DNA from: Alphaproteobacteria bacterium
GTDB lineage: Bacteria > Pseudomonadota > Alphaproteobacteria > Micropepsales > Micropepsaceae
Length of the DNA: 64,000 nucleotides
Direction of reading: 5' to 3'
Assembly (NCBI GenBank): GCA_016124635.1
Contig: WGNJ01000011.1
Span: 124,001-188,000 of the forward strand
Under the pieces are notes generated by a model, which was not told where the DNA came from, ran no database searches, and saw only the letters and a list, made by a program, of their open reading frames with translations. The position numbers and the translations under genes are program-made. Of the stretch, positions 22,406 through 45,059 are shown in pieces. Positions within the stretch are counted from its first letter, which is position 1. The number at the start of each line of letters is the position of its first letter.

Positions 22406-23527
22406 ATGGTCAAGCTGATCGAATTCTCATCTGACGCACCGGGCGATGAAACCGAGAGTGGCGTCTCGGGCTTTTTCGCGGCACTGACGAGGATCGGCGT
22501 CAGCAAAGCCATTCCGAACCTAAAGGCGCGGCTAGGCGCCATCGTCGGCGCGGGAACCACCCTGCCCTACGTTGTCAGCGTCGACGGCGGTGGCCGCGGC
22601 TATGTCGGCAGCTTCACGCGCATGTACATGGATGGCGCGGCAGACGAGTTGGGCTCTTCCAAGAACGCCCTGCTTCGGCTCGCGGCGCCAGGTGTGGCGG
22701 TCAGCGGACACGCCGCCCGCGCGCTCGGCATGGATGAGATCGTCACCGTCAACAACAACCTGCATTCGACGGTCCACGTGCCCGACTGGACCGGGATCGA
22801 CATCGGCGCGATGACGGCGGCGCTTATCGCCAAGTACCCCCGTCACGCAATTTGGGTTCGCGGCATGACCGATCGCCTGAACGCGGACGATCTCGCCCGC
22901 CTCAAGGCACAAGACTACGTCATAGCGCCCTCGCGCCCCGTCGAAATCCTCGATCCGAGCGCGCCGGACTACAAGGTCTCGAGCAATCTGAAGAAGGATT
23001 TCAAGAGGCTCGAGCGGATTCCGGGCATGACATCGTTCATCGGCGGCGCGTTCTCCGACACAGACTTCGCCGCGATGGAGCGCTTCTGTCACAGCGCCAC
23101 GGTCGAGCGCCACACCAAGCTTCTGCCGAACTACACCGCGGCCTTCTTCGCCGCTTGCGCCGCATGGTCCGACTGCCGGATCCTCGGACTTCGCGACGAC
23201 GGCGGCGCGTTGCGCGGGTTCGCCACGTTGATCATCGGACCCACGCGCATCACCTGTGGGACGCTCGGCTACGACATGGATGCGCCCGACGCGAAGCCGA
23301 TCTATCCGGCGCTCAGCGGCATGGAAATGCGCGAGGCCATCAACGCGCGGCTGCCGTTCAACATCGGCTATGGCGCCGTCGACTTCAAACGCGTGCGCGG
23401 CACCGTCCCGGCGATGGAGACGAATGCCTTCTATATTCGCCACCTTCCGGCAGTCAGACGCCGGCTGTGGGCCACGACGTTGTCCGCGATGTCGAGCATG
23501 GCGGGCGCCGTCTTGAAGCGCCTCTAG
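22406..23527 (+). CDS. GNAT-like / CelD-type acyltransferase
   Basis: 373 aa, probable acetyl- or aminoacyltransferase-type fold. The middle (about 150-330) shows PRHAIWVRGMTDRLN, a lysine-rich segment SSNLKKDFKRLER, and later GALRGFATLIIGPTRITCGTLGYD, the strand layout expected for a GNAT-like domain of the FemAB/CelD (BioF2-like) kind. I cannot assign a substrate. It ends 4 bp into the converging monooxygenase gene. Its place beside the monooxygenase and the polyketide genes makes a tailoring role possible. Confidence 0.55.
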   Translation: MVKLIEFSSDAPGDETESGVSGFFAALTRIGVSKAIPNLKARLGAIVGAGTTLPYVVSVDGGGRGYVGSFTRMYMDGAADELGSSKNALLRLAAPGVAVSGHAARALGMDEIVTVNNNLHSTVHVPDWTGIDIGAMTAALIAKYPRHAIWVRGMTDRLNADDLARLKAQDYVIAPSRPVEILDPSAPDYKVSSNLKKDFKRLERIPGMTSFIGGAFSDTDFAAMERFCHSATVERHTKLLPNYTAAFFAACAAWSDCRILGLRDDGGALRGFATLIIGPTRITCGTLGYDMDAPDAKPIYPALSGMEMREAINARLPFNIGYGAVDFKRVRGTVPAMETNAFYIRHLPAVRRRLWATTLSAMSSMAGAVLKRL

Positions 23528-24972
23528 AGCGTGCTCAAGAACGCGTAGTCCTGCGGGTTGAGGATCGCATTGAAGCGGGAGAACGGCGGATGTTTGGCGT
23601 CGGCCGGCGGCAACCCCATGTCGGCGAGCAGCGTATCGAGATAATAGAACGTCAGTGGCCCGGCGAAGTGGCCGAGCGGGTGGCTCGCCTTTTGATGCGC
23701 CCGCCGCCAAGCCAAATCTTCATCGATTGCGGCGTTCATTTCGGCGGCGTTTGGATGCTTCACCTGCCCGTCGATCCAGCGCGCAATCCAGTGCGCGGAT
23801 ATCTCGGAGGTCAGCGGCACGGCCGTCGTTCCGTTGTAGCCGTTGAACGTCAACCCTTCGAGCGCTGGCGCGACGATGTGACGGTAGAGCCGATAGTCGC
23901 CGTTCGGCGCCAACACTTTGGCTCTGTCTTCATCGGATAGGATGGAAAGATCCTGCTCAAAGCCGGTGGCCAAAATGACGAGCTGCGCCGCGATGCGTCG
24001 GCCGTCCGCCAAGGTCGCGCCGTCCGCATCCAAAGATGCGATCTCGCCTTTGACGGCGTCGATCTCGCCGTTTCGCAACTTGCGCAGATTGTCCTTGAAG
24101 CCGAAGCCCGTCGCCAGCCCGATCGAATCCCGCAAGGAAAAGTCGGGCCTCATCTTCTTGGACAACAGCCCAAGATGCGCGCCGATGACCAGCCCGCTGA
24201 CCGCCCAATAGAGCCGGACGAGCCACGGCAGGCGCTTGTGCAAGAAGCCCTCGAGACCGCTCGCATTCCGGCCGTGCCAAAACTCGGCCGAGCGCGAATA
24301 GGCAAGGGCCTTACCGGGAATGACGCCGAACAATTTGTACGGCACGTGCCAAGTGGTTCGCCGGAAAAGCAACGTGACGCGTCGCGCCACCTTGCGCGCT
24401 TCGTAGGCGACGTCGAGCGCTGACTTGCCGAAGCCGACGACGATCACGTCTTTGCCGCTCGCCGCGTTGAGGTCCGTGAACTCAACGGAATGGAGTACGC
24501 GACCGCCGGCCGCTTCAAACTGCGGTCGCCCGGCAAGCTCCGGCGCGTTCCTTTTCGTGAATAGCCCATTGCATAGCACGACGTGCTCAAACGTTTCATC
24601 CGGCAGCGCCCTGCCGCTCGCCATGTCTTTCAATTCGAGCCGCCAGCCCGCGCCCGCCTTACGAAGCGAAAGAACTTGCGTGTTAAACCGCACGTGAGGG
24701 TTGAGCGAATACTTCTCTGCGTAAGCGTCCAGATAGCTTGCAATCTGTCGGCCTTCCGGAAACTCCGGATAGTCGGCGGGCATATCGAAGTCGGAGAACG
24801 TGTAGATCTCGCGTGGGCTCTGAATCTTCAGCCCGATGTAGCGCCGCGACACTTCCCACACGCCGCCAAGTTCCGGGCGCTGCTCGAACAAAGTCACCGA
24901 ATGACCTCGGGCCAGCAGCACCTTGGCCGTCACCAGCCCGGTCACTCCAGCTCCGATGATGCCGATATTCAT
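23524..24972 (-). CDS. Flavin-containing monooxygenase
   Basis: 482 aa class B flavoprotein monooxygenase. The FAD-binding motif IGIIGAGVTGLVTAKVL is at the N terminus, the NADPH-binding motif VIVVGFGKSALDVAYEAR near 175-195, and the segment LATGFEQDLSIL fits the conserved ATG motif. It would oxygenate a nitrogen, sulfur or carbonyl group. It is divergent from the ICMT-like methyltransferase across 116 bp and converges with the GNAT-like gene. It may tailor the product of the nearby polyketide genes, which is inference from position. Confidence 0.85.
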   Translation of the reverse strand: MNIGIIGAGVTGLVTAKVLLARGHSVTLFEQRPELGGVWEVSRRYIGLKIQSPREIYTFSDFDMPADYPEFPEGRQIASYLDAYAEKYSLNPHVRFNTQVLSLRKAGAGWRLELKDMASGRALPDETFEHVVLCNGLFTKRNAPELAGRPQFEAAGGRVLHSVEFTDLNAASGKDVIVVGFGKSALDVAYEARKVARRVTLLFRRTTWHVPYKLFGVIPGKALAYSRSAEFWHGRNASGLEGFLHKRLPWLVRLYWAVSGLVIGAHLGLLSKKMRPDFSLRDSIGLATGFGFKDNLRKLRNGEIDAVKGEIASLDADGATLADGRRIAAQLVILATGFEQDLSILSDEDRAKVLAPNGDYRLYRHIVAPALEGLTFNGYNGTTAVPLTSEISAHWIARWIDGQVKHPNAAEMNAAIDEDLAWRRAHQKASHPLGHFAGPLTFYYLDTLLADMGLPPADAKHPPFSRFNAILNPQDYAFLSTL

Positions 24973-25088
24973 CTAACGTCCCCCGAAGCACGGCGCGCCG
25001 GCGTCGTAATCATCAATCGCCGCCGAACTTGTAGCTCCAATATGCCCAAGCTAAATAGCGAACGCAGCGCATAGAAAGGCCGCAGCCC

Positions 25089-25640
25089 GTGGGTACGTCG
25101 ACGTCGTTGATATTAATCATCGCATCGCTTGCCACGTTTGCGGTCATCACTGGCGTCTCGACATTTCACTTCGTCCGCAAGGACGCCGTCCCGCTCGGCG
25201 CCATGGTAATCTCCGCTGCAGCGGTCTCCAGCGTCGCCGTCTTCGCTTGGTGCGCCTGGATGGTTCCACGCGACACTCTCATTCCCCTGCCTCTATATGT
25301 GGCAGCCTTGACCCTTTTCTTCTGGACGATACAAACGACGCGAAAACGCGACTTCGTCCTCGCCTTTACCAAGATCGTGCCGAACACGCTGTCGGTCGAC
25401 GGACCTTATGCCTATGTCCGACACCCTTTCTATGTTGCATACCTGATCTATCACGCAGCCAACGCCATCGCGACGACGGCACTGCTCCCCTGGGCGATGT
25501 TTGGCTTGATGCTCGCGATCTATGTCGTCGCCGCGCGTGGCGAGGAGCAATTCCTCGCGCAAGGCGAATACAAAGACGCGTACGGCGCCTACCGGCGCCG
25601 CACAGGCATGTTCTTTCCCAAGCTCTGGCGAAGAACTTAG
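25089..25640 (+). CDS. Isoprenylcysteine carboxyl methyltransferase-like membrane protein
   Basis: 183 aa with about five hydrophobic segments. The C-terminal catalytic region has the ICMT/PEMT signature GPYAYVRHPFYVAYLIYH and RGEEQFLAQGEYKDAYGAYRR with FFPKLW near the end, which bind S-adenosylmethionine and the lipid substrate. Methyl transfer to a carboxyl or lipid headgroup is likely. The start is GTG 25089. The stop overlaps by 4 bp the converging barrel gene. It is a candidate tailoring enzyme for the polyketide product. Confidence 0.82.
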   Translation: MGTSTSLILIIASLATFAVITGVSTFHFVRKDAVPLGAMVISAAAVSSVAVFAWCAWMVPRDTLIPLPLYVAALTLFFWTIQTTRKRDFVLAFTKIVPNTLSVDGPYAYVRHPFYVAYLIYHAANAIATTALLPWAMFGLMLAIYVVAARGEEQFLAQGEYKDAYGAYRRRTGMFFPKLWRRT

Positions 25641-26896
25641 TCGGTCAGCGAGAAGTACTTCGTCGCCTTCAGCTGAACGTAGCTGTCGTGGTCGATCGCT
25701 TGCAGCAGGTTGCTGTCGTTGCCGTTGAACATACGTGCTTCGACACCGACGCGCCAATCGTCGCCCACACGGCGCGAGGATTCCAAATAAACGTATGAAG
25801 AACCGTCGCGCGTGTCCACATATAGGCCGACCAAAGCGTGCGTATCGCTGTCGTCATTCAACGTCAGACGAAGGCCCGCAAAAACGCCGTTGGTGTAAAT
25901 GGTACCCGGCTGCGTGAAGTCGCGGTCATCCCAGTTGTATTCGGCCAGGACACCGAGATCGAACCCCTCCTGGAACGGATCCCTAATCGTATACTCGCCG
26001 CCCGCCACCATCGCGAAGAAGTGGTCAGCCCCCATGCCCAGCGGGCTGAATGTCGGATTGCCTGCGTTCCAGCGATAGATACCTTCGCCTTTGAAGATCC
26101 AGTCGCCGATCGCATACGCCGCATCGACGCCGATCTGATCCATCGTCTGGTAGTACGGCTGCAATTCAGGTGTAAGCCCGCTAAGCGTCGGCACGAAAAG
26201 CGGCTCGCGGTTCGTGCCGTGGAAATACGACACGCCAACGTCGAGCGGACCAAAGGTGTTTTCGTAACGGGCCGCGAAATCCCAGCACCACTCGTCGGCC
26301 GAACATTCGAACGCCGGGTTGTATGCGGCGACACGAATCGGACCGCGAAGACGTCCGTCATTGTCGGCAAACGTTTGATTACGGAAGCCGGTCATCCCGA
26401 AGAGAGAAAGCTTACCCCACTCGCCGGTGAAGTTGAGATTGACCATGGGTTGGCCGAGATAGTTCTCGGAGTCGAAGTTCTCGACCAAGTCGACTTGATT
26501 GATCACGTTGACCAAATGACGGGATTCTGCGCGGCCCCAAAACACCGTGTGCGCGCCGATCAGAATATCCCAACCATCGCCGCGATAGCTGTAATTCGCT
26601 TCGCGCAAATCGGCGTGCGTGCGACGCGAGTCATAAACGTCATAGCGGCCGTATGGCGTCACTTGAATTTGCTGACGGCCATCATCCCAGGTGTATGTCG
26701 CATCGATTTGGCCGAAGGCCGACGGCCAAAAGATGTCGTCGCGCTGTCCCGCCCATGCCGGATCGGTCGGATAGACGCGTATCTCACCGCCAAGATACGC
26801 ATTGACGACGAAGCCATCCGTCTTTGCCGGCGCTGAGATCGCGCCAATCGACACAAGCGCGCCCACCAGCAACGAAGCGTAGCCAAACTTCAGCAT
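25637..26896 (-). CDS. Outer-membrane beta-barrel porin-like protein
   Basis: 419 aa. A signal peptide (about 1-22, MLKFGYASLLVGALVSIGAI then SA) is followed by alternating amphipathic strands rich in Gly, Tyr, Phe and Trp over the rest (for example GQIDATYTWDDGRQQIQVTP and GVLAEYNWDDRDF), as expected for an outer-membrane barrel resembling the DUF1302-type barrels. The last residue is not the usual Phe (it ends KYFSLTD), so assembly-signal identity is uncertain. It follows the PPTase gene by 145 bp on the same strand and may be the outer-membrane part of the export system. Confidence 0.7.
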   Translation of the reverse strand: MLKFGYASLLVGALVSIGAISAPAKTDGFVVNAYLGGEIRVYPTDPAWAGQRDDIFWPSAFGQIDATYTWDDGRQQIQVTPYGRYDVYDSRRTHADLREANYSYRGDGWDILIGAHTVFWGRAESRHLVNVINQVDLVENFDSENYLGQPMVNLNFTGEWGKLSLFGMTGFRNQTFADNDGRLRGPIRVAAYNPAFECSADEWCWDFAARYENTFGPLDVGVSYFHGTNREPLFVPTLSGLTPELQPYYQTMDQIGVDAAYAIGDWIFKGEGIYRWNAGNPTFSPLGMGADHFFAMVAGGEYTIRDPFQEGFDLGVLAEYNWDDRDFTQPGTIYTNGVFAGLRLTLNDDSDTHALVGLYVDTRDGSSYVYLESSRRVGDDWRVGVEARMFNGNDSNLLQAIDHDSYVQLKATKYFSLTD

Positions 26897-27041
26897 TAAA
26901 AGCCCCCAAGACGGTATCGTCGGATCGTTAACGTAAGGCACTTAATGAGTGATGAACGATACGGAGTCCATCAACTTGTTCGTGCTGGATATGCAGTGAT
27001 TCCCGTATCAGAGGCAATTGGCGGATGTTGCGCGCCAGTAA

Positions 27042-27692
27042 CTATGGGCTCGCGATTCGCGCCTTCGAAGCAACGTTAAGGGTCTTCAGGACAACGGGAA
27101 CTGGCTTGGGCGTGGCGGCACCCACCACGATCTCCCCCGGCACGCGAGCATGCCAAAAACATACGCCTGCGCGATCTGACCCACGAAACTCAACTTCACC
27201 GCTAGAGCCAATGATCCATGCCGGAGCCATGGTTGCAAACCGACTGGCGCCAAGATCCCATGGCAGGCGCTCAAGCTTCAAAAAGGCCTCAAACGCCGTC
27301 CAAAGCGTCAAGAACGCAGCGTTCCGAGCTGCGGGCGCAAGTTCGCCAAGTCTGGTCGCGAGGCCTTCGGTTCCCAATCGCTGCAAGGTTTGGATCGGCC
27401 CATCCACCGGCCGAAGGCGCTCGATATCGATGCCGATCGGTGTCGAATTCCCGACGCCGATCGCCAAATGCGTCCCGGAGTCCGAAAGACTGATTTGGCT
27501 TCCCTGGAGCGTACCGGCCTCTTTTGCAGCGTACTTGTCGAGCACGCGATTCATGAACACACCGCGCTCACCCGCGCGCCAGCTGACAGGAATGCCGGCG
27601 ACCGCATGCTCGGCCCGGCAGTGAATGGTCGCGTCGCTCGTCGACGCAATTTCGGTGCCCTTCGTCCACCAAATATCGGCGGTACGGCCCAC
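27042..27692 (-). CDS. 4'-phosphopantetheinyl transferase (Sfp-type)
   Basis: 216 aa. It would attach the phosphopantetheine arm to the ACP of the adjacent polyketide synthase. The Mg-binding motif GIDIERLRP (about 89-97) is clear. The second motif reads WTAFEAFLKL, where most Sfp-type enzymes have WxxKEAxxK: the Glu and the last Lys are kept but the first Lys is Phe. The start GTG at 27692 is 2 bp after the LolA-like stop, so they are coupled. Confidence 0.8.
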   Translation of the reverse strand: MGRTADIWWTKGTEIASTSDATIHCRAEHAVAGIPVSWRAGERGVFMNRVLDKYAAKEAGTLQGSQISLSDSGTHLAIGVGNSTPIGIDIERLRPVDGPIQTLQRLGTEGLATRLGELAPAARNAAFLTLWTAFEAFLKLERLPWDLGASRFATMAPAWIIGSSGEVEFRGSDRAGVCFWHARVPGEIVVGAATPKPVPVVLKTLNVASKARIASP

Positions 27693-27694
27693 CG

Positions 27695-28492
27695 CTATTG
27701 CCCCAGGGAGTACGGCGCCATCTGTTCGGGCGTCAGCTTCACATTGAAGTCGTAAGACGACCAGCGCATCTCCGTCGACTTGCCGGTCTGGAAGTTGCTC
27801 ATCACCATCTTCGTCGGCCGCAGATACTTGTTGTCGAACAGCTTGAAGTCCGACGAGACGAGCGTCTTCAAAAGCGCGCCCGAGCGGTCGTAGTACTCGA
27901 CCTTATAGCCGCGATAATCTTGCTGATCGATCCAAGCCACCATCCGCGAATAGCCGGAGTCCGGATCCTTCGGCCGTTGCTCGTTGACGTAGCACATGCG
28001 ATCGGGTGCACTCGGGCATGGCTCGTCGCGCAGCCACTCGTAGGTATTCTTCTCGATGATGTGGCCGACGAGGTCCTCGTAGGAAAATTCGCTTCCTGCA
28101 AAAGACCCGGAGCGCGAACCCGAGGTAATGCGCCGCGTGCGCGAGGCGGCCGGCAAATAGAGCCACTGGTCATCGTCACGATCCGTATGGGCGTGCGTCA
28201 GCACTGTCATTCCACGAACATCGAGCGGTGTCTCGAACTCGATCGACGTGCGATCACCGTCGCCTTTGACCTCGAGCGCGAGCGCTATGAAGTCGCGTTC
28301 GACTGCGGTACCCGTTTTGTCGCGCAAAATCATTTTGGCCTGGCTTCGATAAGAACCGAAACCTTCGTCGCGATCCTTCGCGGCACGCGCGATCTCGAGG
28401 CCTTTTTGCGCGTCTCCTGCATTCGCAACCGGCACCCACGCGAGCGCGGCAACAAAAGCAATGGATCCGAGCAAACGATGAACTGGGGTCAT
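27695..28492 (-). CDS. LolA-like outer membrane lipoprotein-sorting protein
   Basis: 265 aa, exported (signal peptide about 1-26, ending VANAGD). The family signature WLYLPAASRTRRI and GSFAGSEFSYEDL (about 125-145) identifies the LolA-like 'outer membrane lipoprotein-sorting' family, which occurs next to MMPL/RND exporters and is thought to carry a lipid across the periplasm. It overlaps the exporter stop by 4 bp (ATGA) and precedes the PPTase by 2 bp. Cargo is unknown; a polyketide lipid is my inference. Confidence 0.85.
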   Translation of the reverse strand: MTPVHRLLGSIAFVAALAWVPVANAGDAQKGLEIARAAKDRDEGFGSYRSQAKMILRDKTGTAVERDFIALALEVKGDGDRTSIEFETPLDVRGMTVLTHAHTDRDDDQWLYLPAASRTRRITSGSRSGSFAGSEFSYEDLVGHIIEKNTYEWLRDEPCPSAPDRMCYVNEQRPKDPDSGYSRMVAWIDQQDYRGYKVEYYDRSGALLKTLVSSDFKLFDNKYLRPTKMVMSNFQTGKSTEMRWSSYDFNVKLTPEQMAPYSLGQ

Positions 28493-30834
28493 AGTTTTCC
28501 TCGATCGAAAAGTATGAGAAGGCCCGGCAGCAACAACAGTTCGGCGAGCGCCGCGATGGCGATGATGAGCGCGGCCAGTGTCCCCATGACGGACGTGATG
28601 TTGAACGACGAAAAACCTAGCAAGGCAAATCCCAAACTGAGCGCGAGCGAGGCCAAGATCACGGCGCCGCCCGTGTAGGTCAAAGTCTCGCGCGCAGCAT
28701 CGAACGGACTCATGCCCAAAATGCGGCGCGCCCAGCGGTATTTCGTCATCGTGTGTACCGTGTCGTCGGTAACGATGCCGTATGTGATCGACGTCACGAC
28801 CGAAATTGCCAGGTTAACTTCGCTGCCCGTCAGCGACCATACGCCGAAGGCGACCGCCGCCGGCGCCAAGTTGATGAGCAAACTGATCCAGCCCAGGAAC
28901 CAATTCCTGAGCGCCGCCGCCATGATCAGCGACACGGCCAGAACTGACACGGCCGTTCCGAGCAGCATCGCTTGGATGTTTCGCACCGTAAGCCACGAAT
29001 AGACGAGAGACATGCCGGTCGCCGGCGCGACATGCGTCGGTGCGTGCTGTTTCAACCAATTGTTGCCCGCATCCGCGAGCGCGATGATCTCGTTCGACGA
29101 GACGTCCGTGAGGCGCACGGTCACCAGGCTGTCGGAGCGCCCGACGTCGACGAGCGATGACATATCCTGACCTGGAGGCAACGACAGTTCGTAGAGGAAC
29201 AGGTATTGCGCGATCAGCTTCTTGTTGTCGGGGATGCGATCGAACTCCGGCTTGTCGCTGTTCATCGCCTTATTGATGCGGCGAACGACGTCCGCCAATG
29301 TCGAGACATAGACGACGTGCGGCTGCTTACGATACCAAGCGGCGAAGGCATCGAGCGTCTTCAGATACTCGGGATTGGTGATGCCGTCGGCCTCACCAGC
29401 AGGCACCGAAAAGGACAGTGCGTGCAGCCCGGAGATATGCTGCTCGAGATAGTCGGTCGCGATCCGGAACTCGAACGATTTGTCGAAGTACTGAACGAAG
29501 TTGTCGTTGATCTTGAGATACGGGATGGCCAGCAGCGCCAGCGGAAACAGGATCGCGAAGCCGTAGAGAAATTGTCGATTGCGCGTGACGACCCAATTGG
29601 CCATCGCCGCGACGATGCGATGCGTGCGGCCTTCCTCGGTGTATTTCGGAATTGGCAGATAGGACAGCATCGCTGGGATCAATGTCACGGTCAAAACCGC
29701 GCCGATCAGCGATCCGACCGCGACCACGTTGCCGAGCTGATTGAGCGGCGGCGAGTCGCTGAAGTTCAGCGCCAAAAAGCCGACGATCGATGTCGCCGAC
29801 TTGATCAAGGTCGGCAACAGATTGAGACGGATCGTTTCGACAATCGATTGTTCGCGGCTGCGCCCGTGCGTTTGCTGCTGTACCGCCGCCATAACGAAGT
29901 GGACGCAGTCGGCAAAGAACAGCGTCATGATGATCGGTGGTGCCGCCGCCGTGACCGTGTTCAGCACCTCGCCGAACCAGCCATAGATGCCCATCGTCTC
30001 GACAACGGTCAGTCCGATAACGACCGACGTCACGAGCGTCACGGTCATCGATCGCATGCCGATCAGCAAGACGCCCAGAATGATGACCGCCATCAACGGC
30101 ACCAAGAAAAGGGTATCCCGGTGCGCCGCCTCGACGAAGGAAAGGTCGGCCATGATGCCGCCCGTCAGATAGACGTTCACCTCCGGATGCGTCTTCTCGA
30201 TGTCGGCTTTGAGCGCTTCGACGAAGTCGCCGATCTGCGGAACGACTGAAGGACCCTTCGGCTTGTTGAACAGGATGACGACGGACGTCGCCTCGCCGCT
30301 CGGCCCCACGAAGTTCGCAACGATATCTTTGTTGCCGAGCGCGCGCCGCCGCACCTCCGCAGCGACTTCCGGCGTAACCGGCTTGCGCCCGTTGTACAGG
30401 GGCGAGACTTTCAAATCGTCGCCGTCCGCCTGCAGCTGCTGGAAATTCGCCAGCGACTCCACCCGGTAGGAATGAGGCGCCTTCCATGCACGGTTGGTGA
30501 CATCAGCGAGCAACGTCAGGAACTGAGGAGAGAAGACGTTCTTGTCCTTCGGCGCCAGCACCAGGATGACGTTCACGATTTGCGCGTATTTCGCCTCGAC
30601 CCGGTCGAGCGCAATGCGCTCTGGATTCTCAGGGCCGAAATAGGCTCGCGTGTCGGGATTGAAGGTCAGAAAGCGGATGCCGTAGCCGGTGAACACCGTG
30701 AAAAGGACGGCCCCGACGATGATCCAGAGGCGCCACTTCAGGATCAACCAGCCGACGCGCGTCGAGCCTAACGCGAGATCCTCTTCGGGATCGTCGCGTC
30801 GCCCGACCGGCGGCGTTTTGACTGGCTTATCCAT
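28489..30834 (-). CDS. MMPL/RND-family lipid exporter
   Basis: 781 aa. About 12 transmembrane segments in the RND two-repeat layout: helix 1 about 32-52, a large periplasmic loop, helices 2-6 about 220-380, a second loop, and helices 8-12 about 610-770. The MMPL signature region is visible (LINLAPAAVAFGVWSLTGSE and SITYGIVTDDTVH). The start is the ATG at 30834; the frame is open to 30912 but would overlap the PKS end. It lies 52 bp downstream of the polyketide synthase and overlaps the LolA-like gene, so it is likely the inner-membrane exporter for its product. Confidence 0.9.
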   Translation of the reverse strand: MDKPVKTPPVGRRDDPEEDLALGSTRVGWLILKWRLWIIVGAVLFTVFTGYGIRFLTFNPDTRAYFGPENPERIALDRVEAKYAQIVNVILVLAPKDKNVFSPQFLTLLADVTNRAWKAPHSYRVESLANFQQLQADGDDLKVSPLYNGRKPVTPEVAAEVRRRALGNKDIVANFVGPSGEATSVVILFNKPKGPSVVPQIGDFVEALKADIEKTHPEVNVYLTGGIMADLSFVEAAHRDTLFLVPLMAVIILGVLLIGMRSMTVTLVTSVVIGLTVVETMGIYGWFGEVLNTVTAAAPPIIMTLFFADCVHFVMAAVQQQTHGRSREQSIVETIRLNLLPTLIKSATSIVGFLALNFSDSPPLNQLGNVVAVGSLIGAVLTVTLIPAMLSYLPIPKYTEEGRTHRIVAAMANWVVTRNRQFLYGFAILFPLALLAIPYLKINDNFVQYFDKSFEFRIATDYLEQHISGLHALSFSVPAGEADGITNPEYLKTLDAFAAWYRKQPHVVYVSTLADVVRRINKAMNSDKPEFDRIPDNKKLIAQYLFLYELSLPPGQDMSSLVDVGRSDSLVTVRLTDVSSNEIIALADAGNNWLKQHAPTHVAPATGMSLVYSWLTVRNIQAMLLGTAVSVLAVSLIMAAALRNWFLGWISLLINLAPAAVAFGVWSLTGSEVNLAISVVTSITYGIVTDDTVHTMTKYRWARRILGMSPFDAARETLTYTGGAVILASLALSLGFALLGFSSFNITSVMGTLAALIIAIAALAELLLLPGLLILFDRGKL

Positions 30835-30886
30835 CGAGCTCTCTGATCGACCGGCGCAATGAGTAGACGAAACCGATCCGTCTATC

Positions 30887-33800
30887 TCATGAAATCTTCG
30901 CCAACTCGCCAATGGTGAGGTCGGGGTTATCCAACCCGGCCTTCAGCACCCGCAAGAAACGATCGAGATACGCCGCCTGCCCGTCTTTACCATCGAACAC
31001 GCCTTCTCTGGCATGCAGCGAGATCAAGATGTCGCCGTCGACTTCCTCATAGGCGATCTGAGCATCGTTAAGATAGCTGCCGCCGCCTTCGACGGAGACC
31101 GGCAACATCGTGATCTCGAGATCGCCGAAGCGATGCAGCGTGCCCTCGGCCTGGAACATGATCTGCTCGAAGCCCGACCGATCCATGTTGTCGGGCCACA
31201 TCATGTTGAAGGCGACGAAGTGCGGCTTGACCGGGCCACCGTTCGTTTCCGCGGCCGCTTCGAGCATGAGGTGCGTCGGATATCCGGTGTACTCCATGGA
31301 GTCCTGAAGCGCCCGTGTCACGTTCGCGGCATGCTCGCGTAGCGTCGTCTGAGGATCGACGTCGGCACGCACGAACATCTCGTTCGCAAGCCAGCCGACC
31401 ATCTGCTCTTCCTCGCTCCGCGTGCGATTCGCAACGTTCGACTGGATCACCACGTCACGCGCGCCGGTCACACCGTAGAGATGCGCGTGATAGGCGCCGA
31501 CGAAGAGCGCATGCAGGGATACGCCCACGCCACGCGCGACCTCACGCGCGTTCCAATTCTCCTTGGCGGCGACGAAGCGTTTGACCCACGTGCCACGCGC
31601 ATGCGGATCGACCAGCGCCGGGTCGCGTCCACCAAGGCTGAGCGGCGCCGGCAGGTTTGCCAGCTTCTCGCGCCAATAGGAGCGGGCCGCCTTTCCGTCT
31701 TTGCCGTCGAGCCAATTGCGATGCCACCGGGCATAGTCGAAATAGGCTGCATTCGGCTTCTCGTCGCTATCTTTGAGCGGCATTAGCCCGAAGTAGCCCT
31801 GGAAGATCTCACGCAAGATCATGCCGAAGGCCCAGCCGTCGAGCAGGATCCCGTGTCCGCGCAACACGATGACGCTGTGGTTGTCCGGGCGGCTGAAGAC
31901 GCGCAGATCGATCAGCGGCCCGTTCTGCAGGTCGTGGAAGCGGTGGGCAAGTTTGTGCAGCTCGCCCATGAATTCCTCTTCGGGCATCGATTCCGCGTCG
32001 ATGCTGCGGACGGCAAATTTCTCCTTCGGCAACACCGTGACCGTCGGCTTGCCGCCGACTTCGGGGAACGCGCTGCGCAGCATCTCGTGCCGCTCGACAA
32101 CCGAGAGAAACGCCTGATTGAGACGCTCCATATCGATCGCCGGCTTGATCTTGATGACCGCGATGGTCTCGCGCATCCCGTGCATCGGGTATTGCCCGTC
32201 TTCCTGGATGCGGTGCCAGAGCCACTCTTGGCGCGGCGAGAGTTGACGCGTGGCCGACGCATTCGCTTTCTCCGCGCCCTTGCCCTCTTCGGCCGGCGCC
32301 GTGTCCAGCGTCTCGCTGATCGTCTGTGCCAGCGAAACCACCGTCGGCTTCTGCAGGAACTTACCAACCGGCAGCGTCACACCGATTTCGCTCTCGATCT
32401 TGTTCTTGAGCTGGAACGACGTGAGCGAGTCGAGGCCGAGCTCGTTGAGCGGCCGCGTTTCCTCCAGCGTCTTCGCGTCGAGCTTCAGCACGCGGGCGAT
32501 TTGTTGCGCCAAGAACTCTTTGAGGATCCGTTCGCGCTCGGCCCCCTTGGTCGCCACCAGCTCGCCGCGCAGGCGTCCGCCGCCGGCACCCGACGCCGTC
32601 GACGCCATCACGTCAGCCAACCGCGGCACCTTCTTCACCGCGCTGTTCGCGCGTCCGAGCGTCGCCCAATCGACCTTGAGGAAGCCGATCTCCGGGGTGT
32701 CCTTGCGCAACATCACGCCAAGACCGCCGAGCGTCTCGCTCAGATCCATCGGCGGGATGCCGCTTTCCTTGAGGTAGCGCAGGATCTTCTTGTCGCGCTG
32801 AACCGCACCGGCTCCACCGAGCGCGCCCCAATTGATGGCGATCGCCGGCATCCCCATGCGCCGGCGATGCGCCGCCAACAGGTCGAGGAAGCGGTTCGCC
32901 GCCACGTAGTTCGCCTGGCCCGATGAACCGAACACCGAGGCCATCGACGAGAACATGGCGAAGAAGTCGAGCGGCGCCTTGCGCGTCGCCTCGTGCAGGT
33001 TCCAAGCACCGATCGCCTTCGGCTCGATGACGCGCAGCATGCGCTCGCCGTCGAGCTGCGTGACCAACCCGTCGTCGAGCACCATGGCGCTGTGCATGAT
33101 GCCGCGCAGCGGCCGCTTGCTCTTGCTGATCTTGGCGATAACCGCCTCGACCTGTTTGCGGTCGGCAACGTCCGCCGCGATGGCGGTCGCCTTGACGGCC
33201 CGCTTTTTGAGGCTCGCGAGCAGCGCTTTCGCTTCCGGACGCGACGCGCCCGAACGGCTCATCAAATAGAGATGCTTAGCGCCGCGATCCGCGAGCCACT
33301 TCGCAGCTTCCGCACCGAAGCCGCCGAGCCCGCCCGAGATCAGGTAGGCGCCGTTCGGCGACACCGCAAAGGGATGCACCGTCGTCTGGTCGACCTGAAG
33401 ATCTTCCTCCTCGAAGTCGATAACGATTTTGCCGATGTGTTTGGCTTGCGCCATCGTCTTGAACGCATCGATCACGCGCGAAGCCGGAAACACCGTCGCC
33501 GGCAACGCCTTCATGCGCCCGCGGCTGAGGTGGTCGACGCACTCGCTGAAGACTTCCTTGATGCCCTCCGGGTCGTCGCGATCCATGCGCGCCATGTCGA
33601 GCACGAAGAACGCGCCGTTGCGCCGCAGATTGCGCAGACCCAGCGCACCGTCGCCATAGATGTCGCGCTTGCCGATTTCGACGAAACGGCCGTTGGGCGC
33701 CATCACCGACACGCCGAGAGCGATAGCATCGCCCGCCAGCGAGTTAAGCACCACGTCCACACCGCGGCCGTGCGTCACGCGCCGTACGTCTTCGGCAAAG

Positions 33801-36800
33801 CTCAGCGAGCGCGAGTCGAAGACATGTTTCACACCAAGCTTCTTGAGATACGCGCGCTTTTGCGGATTGCCCGCCGTGCTGATGACCCTGGCGCCGATCA
33901 AGTTTGCGATTTGGATTGCCGCGAGGCCGACGCCGCCGGTACCCAAATGCACAAGAACCGTTTCACCTTTGCGCAGATGCGCGAGCCGGACGAGGCCGTA
34001 ATAGGCCGTGCCATAGGCCGCCGGAACCGTCGCCGCATCGACGAAGCTCATGCGCTTCGGCATGTCATAGACCGCCGACGCCGGCACCACGAGTTCGCTG
34101 CGGAAGCAGCCTTCGGCGAACGCGATCACCTTGTCGCCGCGGCGCACGCCTTTGACGCCGGCACCGACTGCCGTGACCACGCCGCTGCACTCGACGCCCA
34201 GCAACTCCGACGGCGTACCGTTGGTGTCGGCGTCCGTCGGGTAAAGCGCTGTTGCCGCCATGATGTCGCGGAAGTTCAGGCCCGCCGCTTTCACCGCGAT
34301 CTTCACTTGACCGGCGCCGACCGCAAGCGGGTCCGTCTCGATCAGTCTCAGATTGTCGAGATCGCCCGCGGACGTCATCGACAGGCGATATTGCCGCGTC
34401 AGTTCCTCCGTCTCCGCCGGTGCCTTAAGCGCCGGCAGCGCACGGTCTTCGGCCTGACGCAGACGCGGCACGAACCAGGCGTCGCCGCGTAGCGCAATTT
34501 CTGTTTCGTCGGTCTTGCCGAGCAGCACGCCCGCAAGATTCCCAGCTTGCCGCTTCGCGGCCTTGGCATCGATGTCGAGGTCGAGGACGGTTGCCTGATA
34601 ATCGGCATGCTCCGTCAGCGCCGTGCGCGCAAAGCCGGCAAGCGGCGCACCCGCCATCGCTTTCGCCAGCGCCTTCGCCTCGTAGCTCTCGCCGACCGGA
34701 TGCACGCCGCGCGTCATCAGCCACACGCGCGGCTTCTGTTCCGCCGTCTTCGCAAGAGCTTGCACAAGATAGAGGGCCGCAATCGAAGAGCGGCTCTCGA
34801 GAGCGGCGACGCTCTTGCGATCGAACGTCTTCAGCGCTTCCGCCGCTGCGGCGGACCAGCCGAAGAGAACACCTGCGATCTTCTTCTTTCCGCCCTGCGG
34901 CGCGACGGCATCGATCAAAGCGGCGTAGTCATCGACCCGCGTCGGATCAATCTGCCAGCCGTCTTTGCCGGACGCTTTAAAGTTGTCGCCCGCAAACACT
35001 GAGACCACGTGAGCGCCGGCTTCCTTGAGCGAACGCGCGCCCTGTGCCGCCAAGCTGCCTGCCACCTTGTCGCGGAAAACGAGCCACGTCTGCCCGCGAC
35101 CGGCCCGCGCCGACTCCGCCAACTTCGGCGTTGCCTCGATCCAGTCTTCAACCAAATAGACCGGCTTCAAATTCTTGGACGTCGACGGCTTTTGCCGCAC
35201 GCCGACCGATTTGCACGTGAAGCCTTCGAGCTCGAGAAGGCGATGGCCCTTCTCGTCCTCGATGATGGTGTCGTTGATGGCGACGGATTCGTCGAACTTG
35301 ACGGTCCGCGCGCGCGACCAGAATGCGGCTTTGCCCGCGTGTCCACGCAGCACCGCACGCTCGATACGGATCGGCAGATAGAGACGCTCCGGTTCGGCCT
35401 TGCCGTTCTTCGAACTCGCACCGCCTCCGATACCGGCCTTCAGACCAAACCCGGCGTGCAGCGCCGCGTCCAGCAGAGCCGGATGGAAGTTGAACCGCTC
35501 AGTTTCAACGTCGCGGGCGCGAACGTACGCCAGCGATTCATGATCGCCCGGCCACAGCTTGCGCATCCCCTGGAACGACGGTCCGTAGGCGTAGCCGCGC
35601 TCCGACAGCTTCTTGTAGATCGGCGCCGGCGACACGGGCGCGCTACGCGGCGCCTTGATCGGCCGGCCGTGCGCGTGGGTCGACTTCGGCAACGCGTGAA
35701 TGATCGCGCGTGACCGCAAAATCCAATCGAGATTGCTTCCACGGGGCTTGCTCGAGATCGAAATGCGACCGCGTGCCGGTTCGTAGGTTGTCTGCACGAG
35801 CTCCGTCCGCTCGTTCGACAACACCATTGCTTCGAGGATTTCGACGTTCTCGAGCTCGATATCGACGGCTTCGCCGAACATCTCGCGCCCGGCGCCGAAC
35901 ATCATCTCGAGATATCCTGCACCCGGGAACACGACGCTGCCGTCAACCTTGTGGTCCTGCAGAAACGCGTGCTCTTCGAGCGATATTTCACCGGACCACA
36001 TCGGCGTCGCCGCCAACTCCCGTATGCCGAGCAGCGAATGCGCCTTCGGTCCTTGCAGGGCGGCTTTGCTCTCCTCGGACTCGATCCAATAGGGCTTCTT
36101 CTCCCACGGGTAGACCGGCAGATCGATGCGCGGCACCTCATCGCCGTGGAAGCTCTCCCAGCGAGGCTCGACGCCGTTGACGTAGAGCGTCGCCGCCGCC
36201 GTCATCATCGTCTTCTCGAAGCCTTCGTCACGCTTGAGCGATGGCACGACGACGGCGCTGGTGCCCTTCTCGGCAACGCTCGACGAAATCATCGCCGACA
36301 GATTGATGTGCGGTCCCATCTCGACGAAGACGTTGCCGCCGAGACGCAAGACTTCACGCAAGCCATTTTCGAAGATCACCGCGTCGCGCATATTGCGCCA
36401 CCAATAGGTGGCATCGGCCATCTGGCCGACGATCAAGTGACCGGTCACCGTCGACACCATCGGGATGTTGCCCGACAGCGGCCGGATCGACTTCAAGGAC
36501 TCGAGCAATTCCTCGCGCAACGGATCCATGTGATGCGAGTGCGCCGCGAAATCGACTTTGAGCACGCGTGCGAAAAAGTCTTCGCCGTGCTTCTCCTTGA
36601 GCTTTTGAACGACTTCCTGGATCGCATCGTTGTCGCCGGCGATATTGATCATGCTGGTGCCGTTCACGGCCGCGATATCGACGCGGGTGATGCCCCATTC
36701 TTCGAGCTGACGCTCCATATCGCTCCGCGACAGCGCGATCGCGGCGATCGTCCCGCGGCCTTCCTGCGTCGCCTGTAGGCGTGCGCGGTGATAGAGCAAC

Positions 36801-38770
36801 TTCACGGCGTCGGGCGTCGACAGAATGCCGGCCGCGTGCGCAGCTGCAAGTTCACCGGACGAATGTCCGATGATCATAGAGGGCGTGATGCCCCAAGCGC
36901 GCCAGCGCGCGACCAATCCGACCTGAACCGCGAACAGCGTTGGTAGCTGATAAAGCGTGCTGGAGCGATAGTCCGCCTCGCCACGCAGCAACTCTTCGGC
37001 GACCGACCAGCCGGCCAGTTCGCGGAACGGCGCATCGATCTCCTCGACAGCGGCGCGGAAGATGGAATCTTCCTTCATCAAGCCGTGCGCCATGCCCCAC
37101 CAGGTACCGCCCTGCCCCGCGAAAGCGAACACGATGCGCGGCTCGACAAGCCGGCGGCCGGTGATAAAGCCGGTATCGTCCTTGGACGGCGCCTCGATCG
37201 ACTTCGGCGCGCGCTTCAGAATGGAGATGATTTCCTCCGGCTTCTCGGCGAGCGCCGCAGCGCGGAACGTCAAGTGCGAACGCCGTACGGACAGGTTGCC
37301 GGCGACGTGATCCATCGATGGCGCCGAGCCGTTCGCCGTCGTCATGAAGTCGGCATAGCGTTCCGCCGAGGTGCCAAGCGCTTTCGTCGACTGTGCGCTG
37401 ACCGGCACCATCCGGTAACGGCGATATTCACGTGATGGATGCATGGCGCCGTTCATATTTGCCGGCGCGCTCTCGAGCACGATGCAAGCATTCGTCCCGC
37501 CGATGCCGAACGAGTTTACCGCCGCACGGCGCGGACGGCCGTTGTCGGCAATCCACTCGCTGTGCTCCAACGGCAGATCGATGCCCAGATCATCGAACGG
37601 AATATTCGGGTTTGGCTTCGAGAAGTTCAGATTTTTCGGAATCTGACGGTTGTAGAGCGCTAGCGTCGTCTTGATCACACCCGTGACACCGGCTGCCGCC
37701 TCGAGGTGTCCGGTGTTTGTCTTGCCCGCGCCGACGATCAGCTTCTGTTTGCGATTGCGATGCTTTCCGAACACGGTGCCAAGCGCGCGCGCCTCGACCG
37801 GATCGCCGATTTGCGTGCCGGTGCCGTGCGCCTCGACGTAGTCGATATCGGAATAGCTGATGCCAGCGCGGTCGCAAGCTTCGCCCAACATAGCGATCTG
37901 CGCTTCCGCGCTCGGAACGCTGATCGTGCTGGTGTAACCGTCCTGGTTGACGCAAGTCGCACGGATGACCGCATAAACGCGGTCCCCATCGTCCATCGCC
38001 TTCGACAACCGCTTGATCACGAGGGCGCCCACACCCTCGCCGCGCACGAAGCCGTCGGCGTTGGCGTCGAAGGTCCGGATCTTACCGGACCGCGAGATCA
38101 TGTTGGCTTTGCTGAAATTGATGAAGACGCCCGGGTCGAGCATCGCATTCACGCCGCCCGAAACGGCAATGTCGCTCTGGCCGTGCCAGATCGAATTGCA
38201 GGCCATTTCCGTCGCGACCAGCGACGACGAGCATGCCGTATCGACGGTTGCGCTGGGACCATGGAAATCGAATTTGTGCGACACGCGGTTTGCGATGATG
38301 CACATCGCACCGCCGGTGCCGGCGTGAACGTTTTCCGCAGTGCGGCGGTAGCGCTGAATCTGCGCGTAGTCCGTCGTGCACGCGCCGACAAAAACGCTGG
38401 TGTTCGATCCGCGCAGGCGCTCGGCGGCAATACCGGCGTCCTCGAAAGCTTCCCAAACCGCCATCAGCATCATGCGCTGTTGCGGGTCCATCGCCTCCGC
38501 TTCGCGCGGCGAAATGCCGAAGAACTCGGCATCGAAATCGCGTATGCCCTCGACGAAACCGCCCCAGCGAACCGACATCTTGCCCATCGCATGCGGATTG
38601 GGATCGTAATACGCATCTAGGCTGAAGCGGTCGTGTGGGATCTCCTTGATGCCGCTACGGCCCTCTCGCAAAAGCGACCAGAACTCCTTCGCGCTCGCAA
38701 CCTTGCCCGGCAGCGTGCACGCGATACCTACGATAGCCAGCGGCTCGAAATCGGTTTTGTATTTGGTCAT
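30887..38770 (-). CDS. Iterative-type polyketide synthase with C-terminal condensation-like domain
   Basis: 2,627 aa. KS about 8-435 (Cys180 in VDTACSSSL, EAHGTGT, KTNTGHLEAAAG); AT about 545-860 (Ser637 in GHSSGE); DH about 925-1200 (His940 in HKVDGSVVFP); pseudo-KR linker about 1225-1440; ER about 1460-1790 (HLGTGGVGLAAIQ); KR about 1805-2000 (ISGGLGGFGAEA, an LDD motif, SxxS...Y); ACP about 2080-2155 (Ser2115 in GLDSLTSF); condensation-like domain about 2190-2620, where HHxxxDG reads HGILLDG (His2306, Gly2307). No thioesterase. All reducing domains look intact, so a saturated chain is expected, probably made iteratively by one module. AT specificity is unclear (FAAHS). The ATG at 38770 is preferred over 38875. 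Confidence 0.93.
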   Translation of the reverse strand: MTKYKTDFEPLAIVGIACTLPGKVASAKEFWSLLREGRSGIKEIPHDRFSLDAYYDPNPHAMGKMSVRWGGFVEGIRDFDAEFFGISPREAEAMDPQQRMMLMAVWEAFEDAGIAAERLRGSNTSVFVGACTTDYAQIQRYRRTAENVHAGTGGAMCIIANRVSHKFDFHGPSATVDTACSSSLVATEMACNSIWHGQSDIAVSGGVNAMLDPGVFINFSKANMISRSGKIRTFDANADGFVRGEGVGALVIKRLSKAMDDGDRVYAVIRATCVNQDGYTSTISVPSAEAQIAMLGEACDRAGISYSDIDYVEAHGTGTQIGDPVEARALGTVFGKHRNRKQKLIVGAGKTNTGHLEAAAGVTGVIKTTLALYNRQIPKNLNFSKPNPNIPFDDLGIDLPLEHSEWIADNGRPRRAAVNSFGIGGTNACIVLESAPANMNGAMHPSREYRRYRMVPVSAQSTKALGTSAERYADFMTTANGSAPSMDHVAGNLSVRRSHLTFRAAALAEKPEEIISILKRAPKSIEAPSKDDTGFITGRRLVEPRIVFAFAGQGGTWWGMAHGLMKEDSIFRAAVEEIDAPFRELAGWSVAEELLRGEADYRSSTLYQLPTLFAVQVGLVARWRAWGITPSMIIGHSSGELAAAHAAGILSTPDAVKLLYHRARLQATQEGRGTIAAIALSRSDMERQLEEWGITRVDIAAVNGTSMINIAGDNDAIQEVVQKLKEKHGEDFFARVLKVDFAAHSHHMDPLREELLESLKSIRPLSGNIPMVSTVTGHLIVGQMADATYWWRNMRDAVIFENGLREVLRLGGNVFVEMGPHINLSAMISSSVAEKGTSAVVVPSLKRDEGFEKTMMTAAATLYVNGVEPRWESFHGDEVPRIDLPVYPWEKKPYWIESEESKAALQGPKAHSLLGIRELAATPMWSGEISLEEHAFLQDHKVDGSVVFPGAGYLEMMFGAGREMFGEAVDIELENVEILEAMVLSNERTELVQTTYEPARGRISISSKPRGSNLDWILRSRAIIHALPKSTHAHGRPIKAPRSAPVSPAPIYKKLSERGYAYGPSFQGMRKLWPGDHESLAYVRARDVETERFNFHPALLDAALHAGFGLKAGIGGGASSKNGKAEPERLYLPIRIERAVLRGHAGKAAFWSRARTVKFDESVAINDTIIEDEKGHRLLELEGFTCKSVGVRQKPSTSKNLKPVYLVEDWIEATPKLAESARAGRGQTWLVFRDKVAGSLAAQGARSLKEAGAHVVSVFAGDNFKASGKDGWQIDPTRVDDYAALIDAVAPQGGKKKIAGVLFGWSAAAAEALKTFDRKSVAALESRSSIAALYLVQALAKTAEQKPRVWLMTRGVHPVGESYEAKALAKAMAGAPLAGFARTALTEHADYQATVLDLDIDAKAAKRQAGNLAGVLLGKTDETEIALRGDAWFVPRLRQAEDRALPALKAPAETEELTRQYRLSMTSAGDLDNLRLIETDPLAVGAGQVKIAVKAAGLNFRDIMAATALYPTDADTNGTPSELLGVECSGVVTAVGAGVKGVRRGDKVIAFAEGCFRSELVVPASAVYDMPKRMSFVDAATVPAAYGTAYYGLVRLAHLRKGETVLVHLGTGGVGLAAIQIANLIGARVISTAGNPQKRAYLKKLGVKHVFDSRSLSFAEDVRRVTHGRGVDVVLNSLAGDAIALGVSVMAPNGRFVEIGKRDIYGDGALGLRNLRRNGAFFVLDMARMDRDDPEGIKEVFSECVDHLSRGRMKALPATVFPASRVIDAFKTMAQAKHIGKIVIDFEEEDLQVDQTTVHPFAVSPNGAYLISGGLGGFGAEAAKWLADRGAKHLYLMSRSGASRPEAKALLASLKKRAVKATAIAADVADRKQVEAVIAKISKSKRPLRGIMHSAMVLDDGLVTQLDGERMLRVIEPKAIGAWNLHEATRKAPLDFFAMFSSMASVFGSSGQANYVAANRFLDLLAAHRRRMGMPAIAINWGALGGAGAVQRDKKILRYLKESGIPPMDLSETLGGLGVMLRKDTPEIGFLKVDWATLGRANSAVKKVPRLADVMASTASGAGGGRLRGELVATKGAERERILKEFLAQQIARVLKLDAKTLEETRPLNELGLDSLTSFQLKNKIESEIGVTLPVGKFLQKPTVVSLAQTISETLDTAPAEEGKGAEKANASATRQLSPRQEWLWHRIQEDGQYPMHGMRETIAVIKIKPAIDMERLNQAFLSVVERHEMLRSAFPEVGGKPTVTVLPKEKFAVRSIDAESMPEEEFMGELHKLAHRFHDLQNGPLIDLRVFSRPDNHSVIVLRGHGILLDGWAFGMILREIFQGYFGLMPLKDSDEKPNAAYFDYARWHRNWLDGKDGKAARSYWREKLANLPAPLSLGGRDPALVDPHARGTWVKRFVAAKENWNAREVARGVGVSLHALFVGAYHAHLYGVTGARDVVIQSNVANRTRSEEEQMVGWLANEMFVRADVDPQTTLREHAANVTRALQDSMEYTGYPTHLMLEAAAETNGGPVKPHFVAFNMMWPDNMDRSGFEQIMFQAEGTLHRFGDLEITMLPVSVEGGGSYLNDAQIAYEEVDGDILISLHAREGVFDGKDGQAAYLDRFLRVLKAGLDNPDLTIGELAKIS

Positions 38771-42002: not shown

Positions 42003-42020
42003 CGCGATCTCCTGCCGCAC

Positions 42021-44870: not shown

Positions 44871-45059
44871 GAGCCCTCGAGCGAATAGATGCACCGGCAA
44901 TGTGAGACCATCACCGGGGCCAAAATGAAAGTCAAAGATTAGCTTTCCCGCCCGCGGCTCCAACAAAAGTCAAGTCTTTGTAATCCAGGTCAAAGCCACG
45001 TGATTGCCACAAGCTTAAGCACCACCCCTGCTTTTGATTGCGATTTGCCGGGCTGGTCG

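Follow-up and report, generated by a model that had tools for sequence, protein, structure and literature searches.

A candidate locus for synthesis and outer-membrane export of a reduced polyketide lipid in an alphaproteobacterium, with a MAS-like polyketide synthase gene beside genes for an MMPL pump, a LolA-like protein and a predicted barrel

The mycobacterial PDIM pathway combines a reducing polyketide synthase (PKS) of the mycocerosic acid synthase (MAS) type with a condensation-superfamily domain, an MMPL pump and a LolA-type carrier. PapA5 is the member of the condensation superfamily in this pathway and performs a direct ester/amide-type transfer, and LppX has a LolA-like fold. LolA-type carriers serve lipidated cargo that is unable to cross the periplasm alone. 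Aryl polyene clusters contain an MMPL-type exporter together with a LolA-like gene and rely on separate enzymes for synthesis, and fungal reducing PKSs of the type of the lovastatin synthase LovB unite a reducing PKS with a terminal condensation domain. In the PDIM literature, MmpL7 is reported to bind the PDIM synthase PpsE (PMC1238737), and the lipoprotein LppX to be involved in export (PMC11539658). Two further systems are described in excerpts of the respective reports: AmeABCD of Castellaniella consists of an HAE3-type pump, a LolA-superfamily periplasmic protein with DUF1329 and an outer-membrane protein, a DUF1302 barrel (PMC6394551), and TOL_3187/TOL_3188 of Thalassolituus combine MMPL and a LolA-like domain with a neighbouring protein, a predicted porin that lacks any known domain (PMC6304351). 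The Thalassolituus pair rises on the C28 alkane, and its authors propose that the porin passes alkanes (PMC6304351, excerpt).

We analyzed a stretch of 64,000 nucleotides from a genome of the Micropepsaceae (contig WGNJ01000011.1), termed the window, for which a first-pass annotation had claimed a cluster of eight genes. Open reading frames were called mechanically, without a gene finder. The eight genes were found as claimed, including the four gaps of 52, -4, 2 and 145 bp; the PKS, MMPL, LolA, PPTase and barrel genes form a row on the minus strand, which is followed by the methyltransferase, FMO and GNAT-like genes:

30887..38770, minus strand: MAS-like reducing type I PKS, 2627 aa (Pfam; ATG at 38770, stop at 30887)
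30890..32251, minus strand: C-terminal condensation domain of the PKS, about aa 2174-2627 (PF00668, E 9e-50)
31835..31855, minus strand: broken HHxxxDG motif of this domain, HGILLDG, aa 2306-2312 (from alignments)
28489..30834, minus strand: MMPL/RND transporter, HAE3-like, 781 aa (PF03176, 1.7e-22; ATG at 30834)
27695..28492, minus strand: LolA-like protein, 265 aa, with a signal-peptide-like N-terminus (PF17131, LolA_like, 1.7e-54)
27042..27692, minus strand: probable Sfp-type phosphopantetheinyl transferase, PPTase (GTG start; ACPS, 23.6 bits)
25637..26896, minus strand: predicted outer-membrane beta-barrel (ATG at 26896; C-terminal Phe in the family)
25089..25640, plus strand: ICMT/PEMT-like membrane methyltransferase (PEMT, 2e-6, 28.6 bits, cut-off 25)
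23524..24972, minus strand: flavin-containing monooxygenase-like (FMO) enzyme (PF00743, 4.1e-36)
22406..23527, plus strand: GNAT-like (Acetyltransf_6) protein (named after an ortholog matching PF13480)

Pfam agreed with the family names given earlier to the PKS, the MMPL transporter, the LolA-like protein, the FMO and the PEMT-like enzyme; the names of the PPTase, the GNAT-like protein and the barrel fit less firmly. In the window genome the type I PKS linker PF16197 is matched once and PPTase twice, and there is one condensation domain, that of the PKS itself. Since these parts are so few in the genome and the gene set recurs elsewhere, the cluster is not a chance assembly. Two adjacent genes for M16-family peptidases (951 and 981 aa) lie ahead of the PKS gene at 39165-44966, and neither had a match on the eight loci tested.

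The cluster shares with the PDIM pathway the presence of a synthase, an MMPL pump and a LolA-like carrier in one locus. It differs from PDIM in that the condensation domain is fused to a single PKS and has a broken motif, that an outer-membrane barrel is present, and that FMO, methyltransferase and GNAT-like tailoring genes belong to the cluster. In addition, PDIM has several Pps synthases whereas the window genome has its one PF16197 match, and a PDIM-type FadD is not found among the eight cluster genes. The window PKS differs from LovB in its bacterial origin, its MAS-like character, its link to a pump and the lack of a methyltransferase domain match; LovB (7cpx) and mokA (6ad3) are among its PDB matches. 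Aryl polyenes are made by separate enzymes, whereas the window cluster encodes a single type I PKS. LppX has been described as a lipoprotein (PMC11539658), while the LolA-like family of the cluster consists mostly of proteins that are not, a lipobox-like pattern being present in 1 of 44 members. The window LolA-like protein also matches DUF1329, as found in AmeABCD, which differs by serving monoterpene efflux and, in the excerpt, by having no synthase (PMC6394551). Membership of the window barrel in DUF1302 was not supported by profile comparison, since hhalign gave a probability of 1% with a small DUF1302 set (12 loci, longest ORFs), so that the barrels of both systems appear unrelated; one weak match to a Prevotella protein annotated as DUF1302 was obtained (E 1e-6). 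An alphaproteobacterial genome, G077, has 14 DUF1302 matches. The Thalassolituus system, likened here by its description, differs by having pump and LolA domain in one protein, and the excerpt reports no PKS (PMC6304351). A search of the open-licence literature found no paper with the gene set, in agreement with the earlier remark that no described pathway has the same parts, and neither the combination nor the broken terminal condensation domain nor the link of a MAS-like PKS to the barrel was found there. Each part is of a known kind, and the combination is new to the literature searched.

According to the Pfam matches, the PKS has the domain order KS-AT-DH-psiKR-ER-KR-ACP-C, with E values from 3e-10 to 2.4e-94 for KS, AT, DH, ER, KR, ACP and C and without a match to a thioesterase, adenylation or methyltransferase domain. 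Residues 9-2160 are colinear with MAS (E 3.8e-295), which is the best full-length PDB relative, and the top NCBIfam matches include Pks2 of sulfolipid-1 (aa 10-2154), under the model cut-off. The domains of the "reducing PKS" of the first-pass annotation were confirmed; the terminal condensation domain with its broken motif had been overlooked. Judged by the general rules for PKS catalytic motifs, those of KS, AT, DH, ER, KR and ACP are all intact. Full reduction by the PKS is therefore possible, and we infer from the sequence that every round would be fully reduced. An iterative single-module PKS is suggested by the MAS-like domain order and by the lack of any other PKS match in the genome. 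YASH or HAFH and GHSQG are standard AT signatures for a malonyl or methylmalonyl extender unit. The window AT has FAAH instead of YASH or HAFH and GHSSG instead of GHSQG; FAPH or YAPH is found in three related PKSs, those of the congener G003 (MAG SZUA-430), of G297, an alphaproteobacterium of another family, and of G126. This signature fits neither the malonyl nor the methylmalonyl rule, which speaks against the pathway reading, and what we infer about the extender unit and the identity of the product is conditional.

The occurrence of the cluster was investigated in relatives and across the class. The earlier expectation that the PKS, exporter and LolA-like genes co-occur in related genomes held for six of the nine genomes in which a protein with both PKS and condensation parts was read; in these six, MMPL and LolA genes are adjacent to its gene (the window genome, G003, G297, G778, G779 and G126). 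It failed for G265, G055 and G009 on the stretch read (20 kb, 16 kb and a 7.7 kb contig, respectively), and these triad-free genomes argue against a link between PKS and triad. Among 61 genomes (window, relatives and class) an ortholog of the PKS was present only in the window genome and in G003, and both are also the orthologs among the 5 of 96 genomes over threshold in the order sample. In the class sample 18 of 385 genomes pass 1e-30, four of which were read (window, G297, G126 and G265). A scan of the named genomes for the condensation domain yielded one locus, the G003 contig, which carries PKS, MMPL and LolA up to the contig end. A second short G003 contig (L021, G003:C356) has AT and condensation matches, hence G003 may hold another PKS-NRPS gene.

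All eight genes are present in G297 with identities of 43-62% (PKS 55, MMPL 55, LolA 62, PPTase 43, barrel 52, methyltransferase 50, FMO 58 and GNAT 50%); the last three lie on the opposite side of the operon compared to the window. Within the order of G297 the PKS tail was detected in 3 of 10 genomes (G297 and its congeners G778 and G779). On the G778 contig (15 kb, ending nearby) the GNAT gene is located straight before the PKS gene, followed by MMPL, LolA and a partial PPTase gene, and no FMO or methyltransferase match was obtained on these 15 kb. G779 encodes PKS, MMPL, LolA, PPTase and barrel, and its contig likewise ends nearby. G126 is the only one of five genomes of its order with the PKS tail; it has the order LolA-barrel-MMPL-PKS with a PPTase gene adjoining the PKS gene, the PKS is 36% identical to that of the window, and the genome holds two triads, one PKS-linked and one PKS-free (L056, L153). 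Three plasmid records of two Sulfitobacter strains, Sulfitobacter dubius DSM 109990 and Sulfitobacter sp. DSM 110093, contain PKS-MMPL-LolA-galE-barrel, with a PKS about 35% identical to the window PKS (two of the three records compared). In Sulfitobacter sp. DSM 110093 the cluster is found with identical protein accessions on two plasmids (L158, L193), with a transposase gene near one of them. The eight-gene set in another family and the partial copies in G003, G778 and G779 argue for one pathway, as does the PKS-pump-LolA-barrel combination on the Sulfitobacter plasmids and in G126. The cluster is, as far as these samples reach, rare and patchy. The window KS is equally close to its congener G003 and to G297 (67% each), which may reflect horizontal transfer.

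Several other loci were considered and set aside. The G265 protein, although its PKS is 40% identical and thus closer than that of G126, was rejected as ortholog because it is a PKS-NRPS hybrid (C, A, T parts) without the trio on 20 kb of a 42 kb contig; weak methyltransferase and PPTase matches were found there. G055 has PKS and condensation parts in one frame with the ER unmatched. In G790 the PKS parts and the condensation parts are encoded on different strands, and G825 has condensation parts only; neither genome gave an MMPL, LolA or barrel match.

The PPTase of the window scored 23.6 bits against the ACPS profile, just under the cut-off of 25, and its G297 ortholog scored 25.4. The other PPTase match of the genome is located in a frame of 136 aa and is AcpS-sized; together with the single PF16197 match and the single condensation domain, this makes the cluster PPTase the likely partner of the PKS. 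The window GNAT-like protein itself has no Pfam match, and its name is based on the G297 ortholog (PF13480, 6e-5, 23.7 bits, cut-off 22). None of the FMO, methyltransferase, GNAT and PPTase proteins of the window had a match at any of 41 other triad loci, indicating that these genes go with the PKS. FMO and methyltransferase do not seem to be fixed members, since they are unmatched on the G778 contig.

The MMPL protein also matches TIGR00921 (HAE3, 3.2e-37), below the cut-off of that model, and the LolA-like protein matches PDB 3bk5 (E 3.4e-59). The C-terminus of the LolA-like protein has an SLG(Q/R/KN) tail in the window and G297 genera (window, L019, L054, L188, L189), and R or K ends 38 of 44 family members compared. 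For the barrel, searches of Pfam, NCBIfam and PDB returned no family and no relative. Of 45 family members, 40 end in Phe (the window copy ends ...KYFSLTD), and the N-termini of the 12 members inspected are hydrophobic by eye; the predicted barrel assignment is based on these two features and is one of the weaker ones. Single-sequence fold models of the barrel and of the GNAT-like protein were unusable (mean pLDDT 33 and 31).

A barrel profile (A2) built from three PKS-linked barrels matched 58 of the 385 genomes in the class sample and 42 of the 398 in the phylum sample. From these overlapping sets of positive genomes 41 barrel loci were picked by hand, not at random and mostly among the higher-scoring ones; they comprise 40 genome loci, including the second copy of the window genome (L138), and one plasmid. 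All three triad genes were present at 38 of the 41 chosen loci and had the order MMPL>LolA>barrel on one strand at 37, the exceptions being L138, L139, L160 and L126, where the contig ends without an MMPL match. The window row has the same order on one strand, with the PPTase gene between LolA and barrel. At 40 of the 41 loci no PKS match was found; the remaining one, L134 (G683), has a gene for a KS/NRPS protein 0.9 kb before the trio and was not counted as PKS-linked because this protein is of another type. Judged from these hand-picked loci, MMPL-LolA-barrel is a widespread module of Pseudomonadota that nearly always occurs without a PKS, a point that the first-pass annotation had overlooked.

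Trees were calculated for the three triad proteins. In the barrel tree a single branch (93/97) separates the PKS-linked members (6 of 47 rows) from the rest, and the PKS-linked LolA group lies on one side as well, weakly (72/72; 8 of 48 rows). In the MMPL tree the PKS linkage needs two changes (8 of 47 rows), where L056 and L139 have long branches and their joining may be false. The PKS-linked triads thus tend to group in the portions of these trees inspected. At L139 (G158) a P450 gene separates the barrel gene from an MMPL gene on the other strand, and LolA is unmatched there. At L160 (Pseudoalteromonas rhizosphaerae plasmid p1, 24 kb) the pump, LolA-like and barrel genes adjoin gamma-mobile-trio integrase genes, so that the triad may be mobile. 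The second LolA-like/barrel pair of the window genome (L138; G000:C10, 7.3-12.6 kb) points away from a neighbouring ABC ATPase-YHS gene and a pair of MacB/FtsX permease genes, and no match to the window MMPL was detected beside it. LolCDE gives lipoproteins to LolA for the outer membrane, and its LolC core has been compared with that of MacB (PMC8277102, excerpt). The position of the L138 pair beside a MacB/FtsX-type ABC set, a class resembling LolCDE, supports but does not prove outward transport.

We consider it just probable that the eight genes form one pathway, in which a reduced polyketide lipid would reach the outer membrane by way of pump, carrier and barrel. The PPTase would arm the ACP of an iterative single-module PKS, which would reduce fully in each round and thereby make a long, mostly saturated chain. 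This chain would not be cut off by a thioesterase but handed on via the C-terminal condensation-type domain. The domain of the window probably docks or positions the chain or its acceptor, and the transfer itself would fall to a different enzyme, for which the GNAT-like protein is a candidate. FMO and methyltransferase may decorate the head group or the chain. The MMPL pump would extract the lipid from the inner membrane, the LolA-like protein would ferry it across the periplasm, and the barrel would take it into or through the outer membrane. Delivery to the outer membrane, by analogy to PDIM, MmpL7 and LppX, would be the best reading.

The hand-over step depends on how the condensation domain is read. 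The PKS tail is a profile match to an NRPS condensation domain in which the second His of HHxxxDG is gone. Gly or Val takes its place in the two species of the window genus (HVLLGDA in G003), and both His are gone in G126 (EQVVIDG). The Sulfitobacter tail, where the motif reads HAALGDA, has no PF00668 match at E 0.001, and two separate condensation proteins with intact motifs are encoded about 7 and 8 kb ahead of the PKS gene. Of four triad-linked lineages, three, including that of the window, have thus lost the catalytic histidine. The motif is intact in G297, G778 and G779 (HHTLMDG) and reads HHIIADA in the G265 PKS-NRPS. These losses, and the separate intact proteins of Sulfitobacter, stand against a domain that is still catalytic via another residue and makes the ester or amide directly, as PapA5 does. 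Such an activity would be in line with the intact motif in the G297 genus and with the conservation of the domain: window and G003 share 55% here, close to the 56% of the DH (other domains 46-73%). Between the window and G297 no part of the PKS varies more than the condensation domain (36%, other domains 49-76%). Faster drift on the window side was not supported, since the window domain (28%) is no farther from G265 than the intact G297 domain (26%), so its rate gives no sign of decay. On balance we regard direct catalysis by the window domain as doubtful, though it carries some weight. The window domain would instead have lost the usual chemistry and kept a role in docking or hand-over, and the domain of the G297 genus may be an active acyl transferase.

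Two other explanations concern the locus as a whole. The genes might serve a small-molecule pathway, in which a chain that is short or reduced only in part would be coupled to an amine or alcohol, oxidised by the FMO, methylated and secreted, with the trio acting in efflux and self-protection rather than in delivering a structural lipid. The FMO, methyltransferase and GNAT-like genes that go with the PKS resemble the tailoring set of a small product, and the PKS-NRPS of G265, with its weak methyltransferase and PPTase matches, stands without a triad. Furthermore, TetR_N was matched by 22 of 115 scanned neighbours of the sampled triads (hand-chosen from 236 ORFs), and these neighbours, together with the 40 triads without PKS, fit efflux of foreign hydrophobic compounds as well. 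However, the window PKS lacks adenylation and thioesterase domains, and a LolA-type carrier implies a lipidated cargo, so that we hold a small-molecule product to be unlikely. It is still less probable that the trio serves to import or scavenge hydrophobic compounds of long chain length, with the PKS as a neighbour by inheritance or using the imported acid as a starter. This would be in line with the Thalassolituus MMPL+LolA protein and its adjacent porin, which rise on C28 alkane and whose porin is proposed to admit alkanes (PMC6304351, excerpt). However, RND/MMPL pumps of known lipid substrate move lipids outward according to the excerpts available (PMC1238737; HpnN, PMC8277102), and the second LolA-barrel copy of the window genome adjoins a MacB/FtsX-type ABC set. 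The link between PKS and trio is also kept, as PKS-linked trios tend to their own branch and occur in several lineages and gene orders, which argues against uptake.

Taken together, we favor one pathway for a reduced polyketide lipid that would be exported to the outer membrane. A broader picture can be sketched tentatively, and we rate it as rather doubtful: the module may be a general surface-lipid route of Pseudomonadota, leading from an RND pump, in one case a LolCDE-like ABC transporter, via a LolA-like carrier to a barrel of unclassified family. In a few Alphaproteobacteria this route would be tied to a MAS-like PKS that lays a waxy polyketide on the outer membrane, as the Gram-negative equivalent of PDIM, and the condensation domain without catalytic histidine would now be a docking or hand-over part. 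The passage of very hydrophobic lipids through the Gram-negative periplasm and outer membrane is poorly known. The barrel family is without a Pfam model, yet it is present in 58 of the 385 sampled alphaproteobacterial genomes. Because two Sulfitobacter strains that carry related clusters on plasmids are in culture, deletion tests are feasible. The locus represents a full candidate route from the inner to the outer membrane beside the enzyme that would make its cargo, and because this enzyme adjoins the route, cargo and route can be tested together.
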